Assembly (NCBI GenBank): GCA_015490555.1
Contig: WFXO01000019.1
Location: forward strand, 1-32,349
Direction of reading: 5' to 3'
DNA from: Caldifarciminota bacterium
GTDB lineage: Bacteria; Hydrothermota; Hydrothermia; WGAB01
DNA length: 32,349 nt
Within the stretch, counting starts at the first letter, position 1. The number at the start of each line of letters is the position of its first letter. Shown here in pieces: positions 1,544-7,089 of the stretch. The notes under the pieces were generated by a model. The model ran no database searches and had not been told where the DNA came from. It saw nothing but the letters and a program-made list of their open reading frames with translations. Both the position numbers and the translations under genes were made by a program.

Positions 1544-2338
1544 TTAAAAAGTACGCACCAACTTGAGCTTGTAGGCCTCTCTTTCCATATCCAGAAGTAA
1601 ATAAACAGCGTCAAAATATCGTGAGGTGTAAGTGTGTTCGACGATTCTTGACAAAGTATCTGGATCGTACGTTGCGGATAATCGCTCAAAGTTCGCAGCC
1701 AACAGAAGCTAGAGCTCATCAAGTCTCTGGATGACTTCCGACTTCTTGCCCGATTCCTGATTCCCCTCATTGAGCCATCTGTCAACCTTTTTGTCCTTTT
1801 CATCAATTCTCTGTTGAATATGCTCGGGCGAAAATTCGGGAATACATGATCCTAAAAGAAGCGAGACATGCAATTTTTTTAGACTTTCTCGACGGGAGAC
1901 TCGAAGGCTATCGATGACGTGTTCCAGGCAGGCCTTCTTGAGATCGAAGTAAGAGAATTCATATTCAAAAGACGTACTCGGAGAGTTTTTCACTTTTTCA
2001 ATAATGAACTGTGCAAGACGGCATGCTATTTCCTCATGATTCTGTAATTTCCCCTTGTGGAAGAGAACTGAGACGTAAACTGGCGGGATTCTGCAATTTT
2101 CTAAAATTTGCTCTACCCGACAACAAATCTTATCTCGTACTTCCTCTTTTCCTCTCAGTTGTTCGGACCAAACGAACTCAGAAACTTCGATGCCGATTTT
2201 CTTCCCATTGTGCACAATGGTGCCATCCGGCTTATCCCCCTGCTTGTAGGTGTCTTTGGGGATATTCAAAATTTCAAGGAGATGGAGCGTGAACCTTCTC
2301 TCCCGCTCTTCCTGTGCCGTGTGTGATTCTTTGCGCAT
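1544..2338 (-). pseudogene. PD-(D/E)XK nuclease-like protein interrupted by an in-frame TAG
   Basis: The annotated ORF (1709-2338, 209 aa) stops at a TAG at 1709-1711, but the same frame continues as convincing protein for 54 more codons to a TAA at 1544-1546, including 'YFDAVYLLLDMEREAYKL'. The full product would be ~264 residues. The N-terminal third contains 'KPDGTIVHNGKKIGIEVSEF'; the D38 and E51 spacing resembles the PD-(D/E)XK restriction-endonuclease fold, with Ser53 where Lys is usual. The rest is helical and charged, with no membrane segment. The start has no Shine-Dalgarno site; a weak TTTAAC box lies 9 nt upstream. TAG is used as an ordinary stop elsewhere here (ksgA, ORF 5044), so genome-wide recoding is unlikely. 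A nonsense mutation, an assembly error or readthrough are the options. Nuclease assignment is tentative. Confidence 0.65.
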
Positions 2339-2458
2339 AATCAGATTGTTAAAGTAGAATCCCCAAGATACAAGAGCGTATCCAAGTATACCGTACCCAC
2401 ACCTTATTACTTATTAACCCCATAACTCAACGCTTAATAACTCTGGCACCTTTCCGTT

Positions 2459-2493
2459 CCTAATAAAACCCTGGCCCCGGAAAGGGACCAGGG
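2459..2493 (-). terminator. Leftward rho-independent terminator
   Basis: Read on the minus strand, CCCTGGTCCC and GGGGCCAGGG pair with one mismatch around a 5-nt loop and are followed by TTTTATTAG. It would stop leftward transcripts coming from the repeat region or reading through from the S24 repressor gene. Confidence 0.75.
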
Positions 2494-2620
2494 GGCAGGA
2501 GGGACTGCATGGAGAGGAAATCAGCTATCGAAATTGTAGGTGAAATGTGGGTAGGGGTCAAGAGGCCAATATGGGAATTGGGAATGGTGGATATTTGTGG
2601 CAGCGATGCACTAAAAACGG

Positions 2621-2640
2621 ACATTAAAACCCCCAAAAAT
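2621..2640. repeat. Direct repeat copy 1
   Basis: acattaaaacccccaaaaat. Identical to the copies at 2654 and 2741. Copies 1 and 2 share a few extra flanking bases (gg before, t after) and start 33 bp apart, about three helical turns. Confidence 0.9.
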
Positions 2641-2653
2641 TTTTCAGTGATGG

Positions 2654-2673
2654 ACATTAAAACCCCCAAAAAT
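2654..2673. repeat. Direct repeat copy 2
   Basis: Exact copy of the 20-bp unit, 33 bp after copy 1 (start to start). Confidence 0.9.
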
Positions 2674-2740
2674 TCTCCCCCATGTTCTTTTCTTAGAATG
2701 ATGCGGGAAAGAACGATGGAAGGATCTTCCAAATCCGTGT

Positions 2741-2760
2741 ACATTAAAACCCCCAAAAAT
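2741..2760. repeat. Direct repeat copy 3
   Basis: Exact 20-bp copy, 87 bp after copy 2 (start to start). Confidence 0.9.
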
Positions 2761-2923
2761 AAAACGATAACCCATTAATTGATAAGTTATTATATTCCAG
2801 TTATTTAATGTGTTAGATGTTAACCATGAGATAAAAACAAGAAAAGAAGGGGGTGTTCACTACAGCGTGATGAAAACGCAGAAAATCCCAATGTAGAGGG
2901 AAGAGTAGTCCCTTCCCCGGCGT

Positions 2924-2943
2924 ACATTAAAAACCCCAAAAAA
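2924..2943. repeat. Direct repeat copy 4 (diverged)
   Basis: acattaaaaaccccaaaaaa, two changes from the consensus, in the same orientation, 183 bp after copy 3. Confidence 0.8.
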
Positions 2944-3380
2944 CACAGAAAGAAGATAGTCAATAAGGTTAACTAACCAGTAATATCTTAAAGATACTCA
3001 CTATTTAAAATATTACAGGGAAAAGCAAAATGGATTATTCGCATCATAAAAATAATTTCATAAGCATCATTATTTTATTATTTTTATTATTTCAGCTCAT
3101 CATTTATCGTTTATTTCCTTATTCCTCCGTCAATTCGGTTACGAAGTCATGCCCTTAGGATATTTTGCTATCATAATATTCTAATATTACTTTATGCAAG
3201 CATATTGTTTTCGATAGGGGTATAGCCCACAAAAAACTTTTCAAATTTTGCCGGATTTTTCCTTTCTCAGTGGGGGATCTATGGGAAAATATATGAGGAT
3301 ATATCTTCGACTTTCACTCCGCCCTCAAAAAAGATTTATGTACAATGTTGTGGGGCCTAGGATTGAAAGGCTCTGTGTTT

Positions 3381-4280
3381 TTAAAGTTTTCGTGAGACCA
3401 AAACAGCTCGCCCAATGATTAAGACCTGCATTGCAGGGAGAAACATTGTCTCAAACTGGGGATTGAAAGGTACAAGTAGGATAGAATCGTTACTAGGATA
3501 TAACACTCGCCTGAGGAAGGGCCTTGTAAAAGCTAGGCCTAAGATAGCTGACTCTATATCCTTGACATCCTCGAAGATGATCACGAGTGCGATATCATCA
3601 GATTTTACCTCGCTGTTAGGAGAAATCACAACCAGATCCCCTCGATTTATCACAGGGCTCATGCTGTCGTCATGGACCTCAATAGCAAATACATCGGGAT
3701 CCTCTATAGACTGAGGGACAGGGAGGTATTCTTCCTCCGGAGAGCTCCAGTAAAGAGCTTTGACGAGCCTTTTTCTATAATAATTACTGCAATAATCCTT
3801 GAATCCGCGTAGGTCTACAGTAAGGGAACCTTGGGAACTCATCCTGATTCTTTTTCCGCGTTCACGGATAAATCCCTTCAAGAGGTGAATCAATTGGGCT
3901 GAGCCTTTTTTGAGGACCGGGGCAAATGACACCTCTATTTTGTTGTAGGAGAGGGAAATCATCAAACCTTCACCGTATATGAGCCAGTTAGGATTGACCC
4001 CCAGTACACTCGCTATCCCTTGAAGCACGACGATTTTGGGAAGTTGTTGCCCTAATTCATACTTTTCTAGTGTCACCCAGGAAATCCCAAGCTTTTTTGC
4101 GAGTTCTTTGAGCGTCAGCCCTCTGAATTTCCTGGCCGTCCTGATCCTTTCCCCAACACCGGGTGCAACTTTTCTTTGTCTGCTGCTTCCTTCAACGGGT
4201 TCCATTGGTTCCCCCAGACCAATTATAACTGTGTCTGGAACTTGATTTTTATCTTTTTCTTGTATCCTGAGTCTTGACAA
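3381..4280 (-). CDS. Phage-type repressor: HTH plus S24/LexA-like domain lacking the catalytic Lys
   Basis: This 299-residue protein has an XRE-type helix-turn-helix at about 43-105 ('GERIRTARKFRG', 'LGISWVTLEKYELG'), a long ~90-residue linker, and a C-terminal peptidase S24 fold. The nucleophile motif is intact (S206 in 'HDDSMSP'), but the lysine general base, expected where LexA has 'VKRL', is Arg (R257/R258 in 'FLRRVL'). I also see no clear Ala-Gly or Cys-Gly cleavage site before it. Known S24 repressors self-cleave with a Ser-Lys dyad; this one may be non-cleavable or controlled otherwise. It faces the Cro-like gene across a promoter/operator, the usual lysis-lysogeny arrangement. The track's start is TTG; an ATG at 4205 preceded by GGGGGA is a good alternative (274 aa) and leaves the HTH whole. 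Confidence 0.88.
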   Translation of the reverse strand: MSRLRIQEKDKNQVPDTVIIGLGEPMEPVEGSSRQRKVAPGVGERIRTARKFRGLTLKELAKKLGISWVTLEKYELGQQLPKIVVLQGIASVLGVNPNWLIYGEGLMISLSYNKIEVSFAPVLKKGSAQLIHLLKGFIRERGKRIRMSSQGSLTVDLRGFKDYCSNYYRKRLVKALYWSSPEEEYLPVPQSIEDPDVFAIEVHDDSMSPVINRGDLVVISPNSEVKSDDIALVIIFEDVKDIESAILGLAFTRPFLRRVLYPSNDSILLVPFNPQFETMFLPAMQVLIIGRAVLVSRKL

Positions 4281-4302
4281 AGTTGTAAATTCTTTGTATA
4301 AT
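4274..4302 (+). promoter_or_regulatory. Consensus sigma70 promoter for the Cro-like gene
   Basis: TTGACA, 17-bp spacer, TATAAT: a full consensus match. The -35 box overlaps the TTG start codon of the divergent repressor. The -10 box ends 9 nt before the ATG at 4312, so the transcript should start within ~3 nt of the start codon. Confidence 0.92.
4277..4297. promoter_or_regulatory. Operator-like inverted repeat between -35 and -10
   Basis: ACAAAG and CTTTGT form a perfect 6-bp inverted repeat with a 9-bp spacer, lying exactly between the -35 and -10 boxes of the rightward promoter and beside the repressor start. This is where a dimeric HTH repressor would block transcription. A TATACA box on the minus strand (4295-4300) could serve the repressor itself. 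Confidence 0.6.
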
Positions 4303-4311
4303 CAACATGCC

Positions 4312-4614
4312 ATGAATCGGACATGCCTCTCAATTAAAAACGAACACTTCGGGGATTGCAAGAAAGCCAGACCCTTGACAACGAAAATCAAATATCTCCT
4401 CATCCTCAAGGGTCTGACGGTCGAGGAGCTCGCAAGGAGAATCGCACGACGGTACCGCAAGAAAATCTCCGCAACTGTGGTTTCAAAGGTAATCCACGGA
4501 CATCGCTTTACACGGTATATCCAGGTGGGCATCGCGAAAGAATTGGGAGTCCCCTTCGAAGACATCTTCGAGGTGGATCATGCTGACCGTGAAAGAGTTG
4601 GCCAAAATTCTTAA
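4312..4614 (+). CDS. Cro-like HTH regulator
   Basis: A ~100-residue basic protein with one helix-turn-helix: 'LTVEELARRI', a basic turn, then 'SATVVSKVIHGHRF' as recognition helix and 'AKELGVPFEDIF' closing the XRE-type fold. The track starts it at a TTG inside the -10 box, which is impossible for a transcript from the consensus promoter; ATG 4312 is the sensible start and implies a leaderless mRNA. It is divergent from the S24 repressor and overlaps the excisionase-like gene by 35 bp, forming the start of an early rightward operon. By position it should act like Cro: a small antagonist of the repressor. It could equally be a second activator; only the HTH is certain. Confidence 0.8.
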   Translation: MNRTCLSIKNEHFGDCKKARPLTTKIKYLLILKGLTVEELARRIARRYRKKISATVVSKVIHGHRFTRYIQVGIAKELGVPFEDIFEVDHADRERVGQNS

Positions 4615-4885
4615 AGTATCCCCGAAAACCATATACAAAATGGTCTCTGAGGGTGAAATCCCCGTCCACTATCGATTCGGAGGCAGTATACGCTTCGACG
4701 AGCGGGAAATTCGGGAATGGATTAAGAAGTGCAGGGTTGTCAACCCAGCTCCTATTATTCGTTCCGCAAGAATTCGGTCAGTAAGAAAAAAAGGGGCCTT
4801 TCGGCCCCACTCGCCATATAGGAGTTACCATGGAAAGTATAATCCAGATAAAGACACAAAGTCAACCTCTCAAAGAAGAGAATAA
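4580..4885 (+). CDS. Excisionase-family (MerR/AlpA-like) HTH protein
   Basis: A 101-residue protein whose first 55 residues are a textbook excisionase/DNA-binding domain: 'TVKELAKILKVSPKTIYKMVSEGEIPVHYRFGG' cut here at the core, then 'IRFDEREIREWI'. Such proteins bend DNA at attachment sites and steer the integrase toward excision, or act as AlpA-like activators. GAGGTGG lies 4 nt before the ATG. It overlaps the Cro-like gene by 35 bp. The C-terminal ~45 residues are basic and low in complexity, and they are encoded over a hairpin that works as a terminator for the opposite strand. The tyrosine recombinase downstream at 5950 is its likely partner. Confidence 0.85.
   Translation: MLTVKELAKILKVSPKTIYKMVSEGEIPVHYRFGGSIRFDEREIREWIKKCRVVNPAPIIRSARIRSVRKKGAFRPHSPYRSYHGKYNPDKDTKSTSQRRE
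4786..4808 (-). terminator. Leftward terminator inside the excisionase-like gene
   Basis: GGGGCC and GGCCCC form a stem with a short loop. On the minus strand the stem is followed by seven T residues and CTTAC, a good intrinsic terminator. On the plus strand there is no T-tract. No leftward gene is seen to its right, so it suggests an antisense transcript or a barrier to leftward readthrough. Confidence 0.65.
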
Positions 4886-5078
4886 AAACCCGTTAATTCC
4901 TGGGAACATCTCAAGATCCTGTAAACTCCCACGACTCCCTGGACAAACCACCCGGACGCCCTTACTGGAAATGACCTTACAAGCTTCTCAACGGAGTATC
5001 ACTCTCGTCACGTATTTCTTTCCGTCTAAAAGGAGTGTAACCCATGCGTCGAGCTCGCAAGACTCCCCACACCTATAA
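4830..5078 (+). CDS. Possible small element protein (82 aa)
   Basis: An unrecognised 82-residue ORF. Its support is a good ribosome binding site: TAGGAG 5-6 nt before the ATG at 4830. It overlaps the excisionase-like ORF by 56 bp and the next ORF by 35 bp, in the packed style of phage early regions. The sequence is polar, rich in Ser, Thr, Pro and Gln, with no recognised motif or membrane segment. If real, the gene bridges an otherwise empty 158-bp gap between the excisionase-like gene and ORF 5044. Chance is possible. Confidence 0.4.
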   Translation: MESIIQIKTQSQPLKEENKNPLIPGNISRSCKLPRLPGQTTRTPLLEMTLQASQRSITLVTYFFPSKRSVTHASSSQDSPHL

Positions 5079-5913
5079 TAAAGTTCAGCCCAAAACGGCA
5101 TTCACTACTGCTCTCCAAAAAATCCGGAATTTCTTCTCGTTTAAGACCACGCAGCCAACCAGGGTCCAGAACCCAAGTGACAATCCGGAAGCCGAAAACC
5201 CGGAATACCCTCTTTTAGAAAATGCTGGACATATAAAACCTTCTCTTTTTGTCACCCCCACACTTACACACTCCAGATCACAATACCGAGGGTACTCGAA
5301 AACCAACAAAAAGGCGACGCCTCCTTCGAAAGTTCAGCGGTATAACGCAGGATCTGACGATCCACGGAACCCACAGTCTGTACATTTGAAATCACACCGG
5401 CAGCATGAACCGAATCCCAGCACCCCGACAAGACTCCCGTATCACACGCTCATTGAAGGCACGGATTTTGAGCCCCTATTCTTACAGAACCCGGATGCCT
5501 GGCTTCAGATCCTACAACGTTTTGATAAAAAGAAAATTGCAGATTCCGTGCAAGGTGTCCAGTCCCTCTTGGACAGTGGAGCCCCCATTCGAAATATTGT
5601 CGCTTACCTGGTCAAGGTCCTACAGAATGGGGGTTTCGTATCACAAAAATCTCCCACCTCCACGACCCAAAGAATGGTCTTAAAACTTCAAGAACTCGAA
5701 ACACGATACTGGAGTCTTGGGACTTTGCTTGAGAAGTGGTTAACGCTACCCAAGAGTGAACGGGACCAGTGGATCCACAGAGCACGTGAAAGGTTTCTCA
5801 GTCAACACTACCCTCTGAGATTCCTGAAACAGTACTCCTACGCAATCGAATATGAAGCTATTAGGCTGTGGTGTTCAATGGATCAACAACGAAGGGTTAC
5901 TGACGAAGGGTAG
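5044..5913 (+). CDS. Unrecognised island protein with disordered N terminus and helical C terminus
   Basis: I do not recognise this 289-residue protein. AAAGGAG sits 7-8 nt before the ATG. Residues 1 to ~130 are basic and rich in Pro, Ser, Thr, Asn and Gln with little hydrophobic content, so probably disordered. Residues ~135-285 look like a folded helical domain ('DAWLQILQRFDKKKIADSV', 'LLDSGAPIRNIVAYLVKVLQNGG', then Trp- and Arg-rich helices). Its place between excisionase and integrase, where small elements often carry a replication or initiator gene, suggests a role in replication or maintenance, and the 'I.NIVAYLVKVL' helix loosely recalls plasmid Rep winged-helix C-terminal regions. That is a guess from context. 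No nuclease, ATPase or primase motif is visible. Confidence 0.7.
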   Translation: MRRARKTPHTYNKVQPKTAFTTALQKIRNFFSFKTTQPTRVQNPSDNPEAENPEYPLLENAGHIKPSLFVTPTLTHSRSQYRGYSKTNKKATPPSKVQRYNAGSDDPRNPQSVHLKSHRQHEPNPSTPTRLPYHTLIEGTDFEPLFLQNPDAWLQILQRFDKKKIADSVQGVQSLLDSGAPIRNIVAYLVKVLQNGGFVSQKSPTSTTQRMVLKLQELETRYWSLGTLLEKWLTLPKSERDQWIHRARERFLSQHYPLRFLKQYSYAIEYEAIRLWCSMDQQRRVTDEG

Positions 5914-5949: not shown

Positions 5950-6996
5950 ATGAGGATTTTCAAGAGGGGCAGGTATTGGTGGATTGACTTTACGTATCAC
6001 GGCAGGCGTTACCGCTTTTCACTGAAAACAACAATGAAATCAGTGGCCAAAGCTGTGATGAGGGATATCCAACGAAAGATCGTGGCAGAAGAGTTCTCAT
6101 TGCCTTGGCAGACAGAATCCATCATTTTCGATGATTTTGTTACAGAGTACCTCAAACATTCCCAAATGCATAAAACCCCCGCCGGATTTGCATTGGAAAA
6201 AGTTATCATTCGCCACCTCCTGGAGCATTTCTCGGGAAAACCCTTAGAGGCAATTCGGCCGGAGGATATTGAACACTACAAAATGAAGAGGCTGAAAAAA
6301 GTGAAACCTGCCACCTTGAATCGTGAACTCCGCGTATTACGCGCTCTGCTCAACAAGGCCGTTCAGTGGGGCCACATCGATGAAAGCCCCTTCAAATATG
6401 TCAAGCTCCTTAAGGAGCCTCCGGGTCGGATTCGGTACCTCTCCACGGACGAACTTAGGAGACTCCTTGCTGTTCTTGGAGATGGACACCTGCGGACCAT
6501 TGTTCTTATTGCTCTTAACACCGGAATGAGAAAGGGTGAGATCTTATCTCTTCGTTGGAAAGATATCGACTTCGAACGCCGCCTCATCATCTTGAAGCAG
6601 ACCAAAACGAACCAATTGAGGATCGTTCCCATGAATGACATCGTCTATCACGCCCTCTTGGCCGCAAAACCCAAAAACGCCCATCCCCAAGACAGGGTTT
6701 TCCAAATCAAAAGCTTTAAACGGTCGTGGAAGACAGCTTTGAAGAAAGCCGGCATTCACGATTTCCGCTTTCATGACCTTCGTCACACGTTTGCCTCGTA
6801 TCTTGTGATGAAGGGGATAGATCTCCGGACGGTTTCGGAGTTGTTAGGTCACCGGACCTTAAAAATGGTGTATCGATACAGTCACTTAAATGAAGAAAGG
6901 TTGCGGGTTGCGACGAACACCCTTGGCACAATTTTGGCACACTCGGCGAATTTGGACAAACTGGAGTCAGATAAAAGTGAACGTGGAAGTGATTGA
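5950..6996 (+). CDS. Tyrosine recombinase / phage-type integrase
   Basis: A 348-residue site-specific recombinase that should integrate and excise the island. The N-terminal ~55 residues look like a short arm-binding domain ('RYWWIDFTYHGRRYRFSL'). A SAM-like core-binding domain follows at ~60-150 and the catalytic domain at ~160-325. All active-site residues are present: R194 ('TGMRKGE'), K219 region, H275 and R278 ('HDLRHTFAS'), H301 ('LLGH') and nucleophile Y310 ('YRYSHL'). No strong Shine-Dalgarno site is seen, so the start is somewhat uncertain. The gene ends 18 bp from the 3' end of tRNA-Gly, the classic position for an integrase whose attachment site lies in a tRNA gene. I did not find the second attachment copy in this window. 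Confidence 0.95.
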   Translation: MRIFKRGRYWWIDFTYHGRRYRFSLKTTMKSVAKAVMRDIQRKIVAEEFSLPWQTESIIFDDFVTEYLKHSQMHKTPAGFALEKVIIRHLLEHFSGKPLEAIRPEDIEHYKMKRLKKVKPATLNRELRVLRALLNKAVQWGHIDESPFKYVKLLKEPPGRIRYLSTDELRRLLAVLGDGHLRTIVLIALNTGMRKGEILSLRWKDIDFERRLIILKQTKTNQLRIVPMNDIVYHALLAAKPKNAHPQDRVFQIKSFKRSWKTALKKAGIHDFRFHDLRHTFASYLVMKGIDLRTVSELLGHRTLKMVYRYSHLNEERLRVATNTLGTILAHSANLDKLESDKSERGSD

Positions 6997-7014
6997 GTTT
7001 CAGAAGGTTAAGGA

Positions 7015-7089
7015 TGGAGCGGGAGACGGGATTCGAACCCGCGACCCCTACCTTGGCAAGGTAGTGCTCTACCTCTGAGCTACTCCCGC
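7015..7089 (-). tRNA. tRNA-Gly (GCC)
   Basis: The minus strand folds as a full cloverleaf: acceptor GCGGGAG/CTCCCGC, D arm GCTC...GAGC, anticodon stem CTACC/GGTAG around TTGCCAA (anticodon GCC), T loop TTCGAAT, and an encoded 3' CCA (TCCA end). A consensus promoter precedes it. Its 3' end faces the integrase, so it is the likely insertion target. Confidence 0.97.

Follow-up and report, generated by a model that had tools for sequence, protein, structure and literature searches.

Salmonella genomic island 1 (SGI1) is an integrative element. Its oriV has four iterons, which are 17 bp long, contain a G5 core (RKGGGGGHRATTATGCG) and have AT-rich flanks (PMC7433901). A rep gene adjoins these iterons in SGI1, where a DnaA box is also present, and replication was abolished when oriV was lost (PMC7433901). 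In the stretch of 32,349 nucleotides analyzed here (hereafter the window), an integrative element carries an array of four repeats of about 20 bp. The array is real and element-specific and belongs to a known general kind.

Three copies of the repeat, at positions 2621-2640, 2654-2673 and 2741-2760, match ACATTAAAACCCCCAAAAAT exactly, and a fourth, at 2924-2943, matches it with two mismatches. All four copies lie on the plus strand in one orientation, and the copy-to-copy spacings are 33, 87 and 183 bp; the positions and the irregular spacing given in the original prediction were thus reproduced. The view that the unit is too long and too well kept for chance was also borne out, since only 0.01 matches to ACATTAAAACCCCCAAAAAT with three or fewer mismatches are expected in the window on the basis of dinucleotide shuffles. 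A weighted scan of both strands of the whole window showed no fifth copy (the best other score was 11.8, versus 31 or more for the copies) and no inverted copy. The copies share a sharply bounded unit of about 20-21 bp, G[G/T]ACATTAAAACCCCCAAAAAT. Since no more than one to three bases of the flanks are alike, the conserved unit is about 21 bp long. The conserved thing, judged from the four copies, is the 20-mer unit itself, as a recognition site would show. The 20-mer is asymmetric, having neither a palindrome nor dyad symmetry, and reads ATTTTTGGGGGTTTTAATGT on the minus strand.

The cluster is restricted to this locus. In the source genome, searched over the 2,163,145 bases (2.16 Mb) of its 109-contig draft, there was only one other 20-mer site with three or fewer mismatches, a lone site on contig C5, and no second cluster was found. 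The search of 60 relatives gave isolated two-mismatch sites only, with no cluster. The exact 20-mer had no match in IMG/VR and three single matches in GTDB, all unrelated. The motif is, by these searches, private to this locus. The repeat is not scattered throughout the genome, and the link to the element that had been proposed is supported. In a scan of IMG/VR for paired GACATTAAAA sites, 50 loci were obtained, none of which was recognized as related. No DNA similarity to the gap that contains the array was found among plasmids and phages, and a literature search for the 20-mer motif found nothing. Separately, an unrelated phage contig in IMG/VR (L142:3211-3267; L113/L142) has three perfect tandem 19-bp repeats, CGACATTAAAAGTGGACCA, which are intergenic and operator-like.

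The array has its place in an element with integration and regulation modules. The element parts seen are an S24 repressor, a Cro-like protein, an excisionase, an ORFan, a tyrosine integrase and an adjoining tRNA-Gly. The S24/HTH repressor is encoded on the minus strand at 3381-4280 (Peptidase_S24, 2.4e-14), and is followed on the plus strand by the Cro-like HTH protein (4294-4614), the HTH_17 excisionase-type protein (4580-4885, TIGR01764), the 289-aa ORFan ORF 5044 (5044-5913), which is a candidate binding protein by position only, and the tyrosine integrase (5950-6996). The tRNA-Gly(GCC) gene, on the minus strand at 7015-7089, is the attachment gene. To the left of the gap lies a 209-aa ORFan, ORF 1709 (1709-2338, minus strand), which matches no family; by eye, its KPDGTI...KKIGIEVSEF recalls the PD-(D/E)XK nuclease motif. 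No relatives of ORFs 650, 1709 and 5044 were found in the phylum, in plasmids or in IMG/VR. Structure models predicted from single sequences for ORFs 5044 and 1709 had mean pLDDT values of 49 and 46, respectively, a confidence too low for use.

The gap itself is non-coding, about 1 kb long (2339-3380), and lies between ORF 1709 and the repressor gene, both on the minus strand. The G+C content is about 0.55-0.6 to the right of the tRNA gene, 0.43-0.49 in the element, and, in 60-bp bins, 0.2-0.38 at about 2940-3300. Within the array most 60-bp bins have 35-47% G+C, and a single bin immediately to the right of copy 3 has 23%. The original prediction had placed the copies in an AT-rich gap. An AT-rich tract does exist, but the sustained tract (approximately 2940-3300, 20-38% G+C) lies to the right of the array. 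This tract is a candidate unwinding region and contains an imperfect inverted repeat at 3043-3090. On the other side, a leftward intrinsic terminator is located at 2469-2493 on the minus strand, with a stem of 10 pairs (2493-2469) followed by TTTTATT. The terminator that had been said to end the tract is therefore real, but is located about 130 bp past the leftmost copy. No consensus DnaA box (TTWTNCACA) was found in 2340-3380, where there is a single relaxed match. In addition, GATTGAAAGG occurs twice in 3350-3475; the two copies, near 3360 and near 3462, are separated by about 100 bp and recall a CRISPR repeat end.

We tentatively regard the four repeats as same-orientation sites for a DNA-binding protein that the element encodes, most likely forming an iteron-like replication or maintenance site. 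A sharp asymmetric unit in a single orientation, private to the element and with an AT-rich tract adjoining, fits the sites of an element-encoded protein. In such a mechanism the repeats, each of about 21 bp or two helical turns, would be bound by this protein, and the array would be used when the element is excised. Loading of the protein on the repeats would then open the AT-rich tract to the right. The binding, the identity of the protein (ORF 5044 or a protein encoded outside the part of the element that is seen) and the role in replication are what we infer.

Two features known from iteron origins were found at the locus, namely multiple direct repeats in the size range of about 17-22 bp and an adjoining AT-rich tract. 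Iterons are usually regularly spaced, however, and the spacings of 33, 87 and 183 bp represent neither whole helical turns nor a regular interval. No Rep_3 gene was found in the genome, and none of the window's element proteins, from an element that is incomplete in the draft, had a rep or par family match. Since neither a Rep gene nor a DnaA box was found, the iteron origin stays a model. Iterons and a partition site, two of the options raised earlier, thus keep some standing, weakened by these absences. A scan of 19 related integrase loci, replicating ones included, showed no similar array. The iteron model has support by analogy from SGI1 and from related-integrase elements, some of which have genes for replication: one (L100) has an HTH_36/DnaD-type initiator, DnaB and a DnaG-like primase, and another (L088) has DnaB. 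A more specific proposal, that the array and the ORFan 5044 constitute a replication or maintenance module of an undescribed type in tRNA-targeting integrative elements of this uncultured phylum, seems decidedly doubtful. As an origin, the array would provide a handle on the replication of small integrative elements in an uncultured lineage.

It is worth considering a regulatory array, which we think somewhat unlikely. The Cro-like protein (4294), the HTH_17 protein (4580) or ORF 5044 would bind the sites and control a leftward transcript or ORF 1709. The array is indeed upstream of ORF 1709 on the minus strand, and a weak leftward promoter match at 2816-2789, between copies 4 and 3, is followed by the leftward terminator. 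The three-copy 19-bp direct array in the intergenic region of the unrelated phage locus in IMG/VR is consistent with such a role. The promoter matches are, however, at chance level (4 found, 3.5 expected), the terminator precedes ORF 1709, and the 20-mer was not found in the S24/Cro intergenic region.

The array could also be a stranded remnant of a Tn7-, Mu- or IS21-like transposon, representing one of its ends. Near both ends, such transposons have several direct sites at irregular intervals to which the transposase binds, and the sites here are likewise several, asymmetric, irregularly spaced and all in one orientation. In addition, the GGACATTAAAA core of the 20-mer recalls transposase sites of this type, which serves as a lead only. 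For a complete transposon a second end would be expected, but there are no inverted copies, and the 20-mer cluster has no other copy in the genome. Nor was a true IstB found in the genome, the best match (1.3e-6) being weaker than the DnaA-like background, and seven IS21-type loci of the phylum showed no comparable sites. These facts make a transposon end unlikely.

Another explanation is a leftward non-coding RNA that contains three or four of the 20-nt repeats and ends at the 2493-2469 terminator, in the style of a type III toxin-antitoxin system with ORF 1709 as the partner. The layout of repeats, terminator and ORF fits, and the terminator is a good one. The repeats, however, are not tandem, and ORF 1709 has no match to any toxin family. 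The folding of the predicted RNA is ordinary (z scores of -1.66 and -0.88), and nothing above threshold was obtained in the Rfam search. We consider this explanation improbable.

Arrays of direct repeats of about 20 bp are also a known form of partition sites, and the array resembles a centromere in this respect. Since no gene of the ParA, ParB or ParR type was found among the window's element genes, a partition-like site appears quite improbable. Still less likely is that the repeats are coding. A frame for an 89-aa protein (2509-2778, plus strand), with AGGAGG before the ATG at 2509, contains the three exact copies as in-frame [D/Y]IKTPKN motifs, and the spacings are all multiples of 3. Copy 4, however, lies outside this frame behind stops, and the codons are identical down to the third base. 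The frame has no family match, and codon scores do not decide the matter.

The ends of the element were examined from a duplicated segment of 173 bp at 6890-7062, which covers the integrase 3' end and, of the tRNA-Gly gene, the 3' part as far as the anticodon stem. Its second copy, with two differences, is located at C89:43552-43724 (L053:9553-9725), beside a comEC gene and without the 5' part of the tRNA; there is no second copy within the window. From this sequence match, the C89 copy is probably the element's far att end, or else the end or scar of a second copy. C89 and C19 may therefore hold both ends of one element. The synteny of comEC, tRNA-Gly and murJ is not conserved in relatives and is uninformative on this point. 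If C89 is the other end, the element extends beyond the part seen, and contigs missing from the assembly may carry more of its genes. Since the genome is a draft in 109 contigs, the larger part of the element may be absent. A three-gene cluster just inside the C89 att end (L053:10799-12792) comprises two ORFans and a second recombinase, which is XerC-like.

Near the integrase/tRNA junction, a direct pair GGCACA-N5-GGCACA is located at 6925-6941 on the plus strand, with 0.01 expected by chance in the window. The pair recurs immediately to the inner side of the C89 att end (L053:9842). It is also present in 11 of 19 related-integrase loci (L085, L088, L089, L091, L093, L094, L097, L098, L101, L102 and L103), where it is located at the integrase 3' end or shortly past it, with a tRNA gene adjoining. 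It is probably the recognition site of this integrase family. This by-product of the analysis is firmer, since in many related elements the pair indicates where integrase and tRNA genes meet and is an aid in locating element ends. With the GGCACA pairs as integrase sites, the 20-mers are not needed as arm sites. The earlier suggestion that the 20-mers are arm-type sites of the integrase, which does have a weak Arm-DNA-bind_2 match, is contradicted by the GGCACA pairs at the att junctions and by the position of the 20-mers about 4 kb inside, away from the att core and the tRNA, and is hardly credible. Repressor operators, also put forward earlier, are unlikely: for an S24/CI operator, the 20-mer lacks dyad symmetry and has no match around 4200-4320, the S24/Cro promoter region. 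A CRISPR array is unsupported as well, in agreement with the original prediction, since the spacings of 33, 87 and 183 bp form no regular repeat-spacer units.

Compared with known systems, the array resembles type III toxin-antitoxin loci (ToxIN) in the order of repeats, terminator and a gene of about 200 codons, whereas ToxI repeats are tandem and the repeats here are not, and no ToxN-like protein is present. With the arm-type sites of tyrosine integrases it shares direct repeats in an integrase-bearing element, but it is in the wrong place and another motif has that role here. Like the ends of Tn7, Mu and IS21, it has several asymmetric, irregularly spaced direct sites, although it has neither a second end in inverse orientation nor a transposase. 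The array differs from SGI1 in that no rep gene or DnaA box was found with it. As in the SGI1 oriV, however, the repeats are direct, number four, measure 17-20 bp and have a G5 core. They are located in an integrative element with AT-rich DNA adjoining, and, as in SGI1, an HTH_17 gene is present in the same element.
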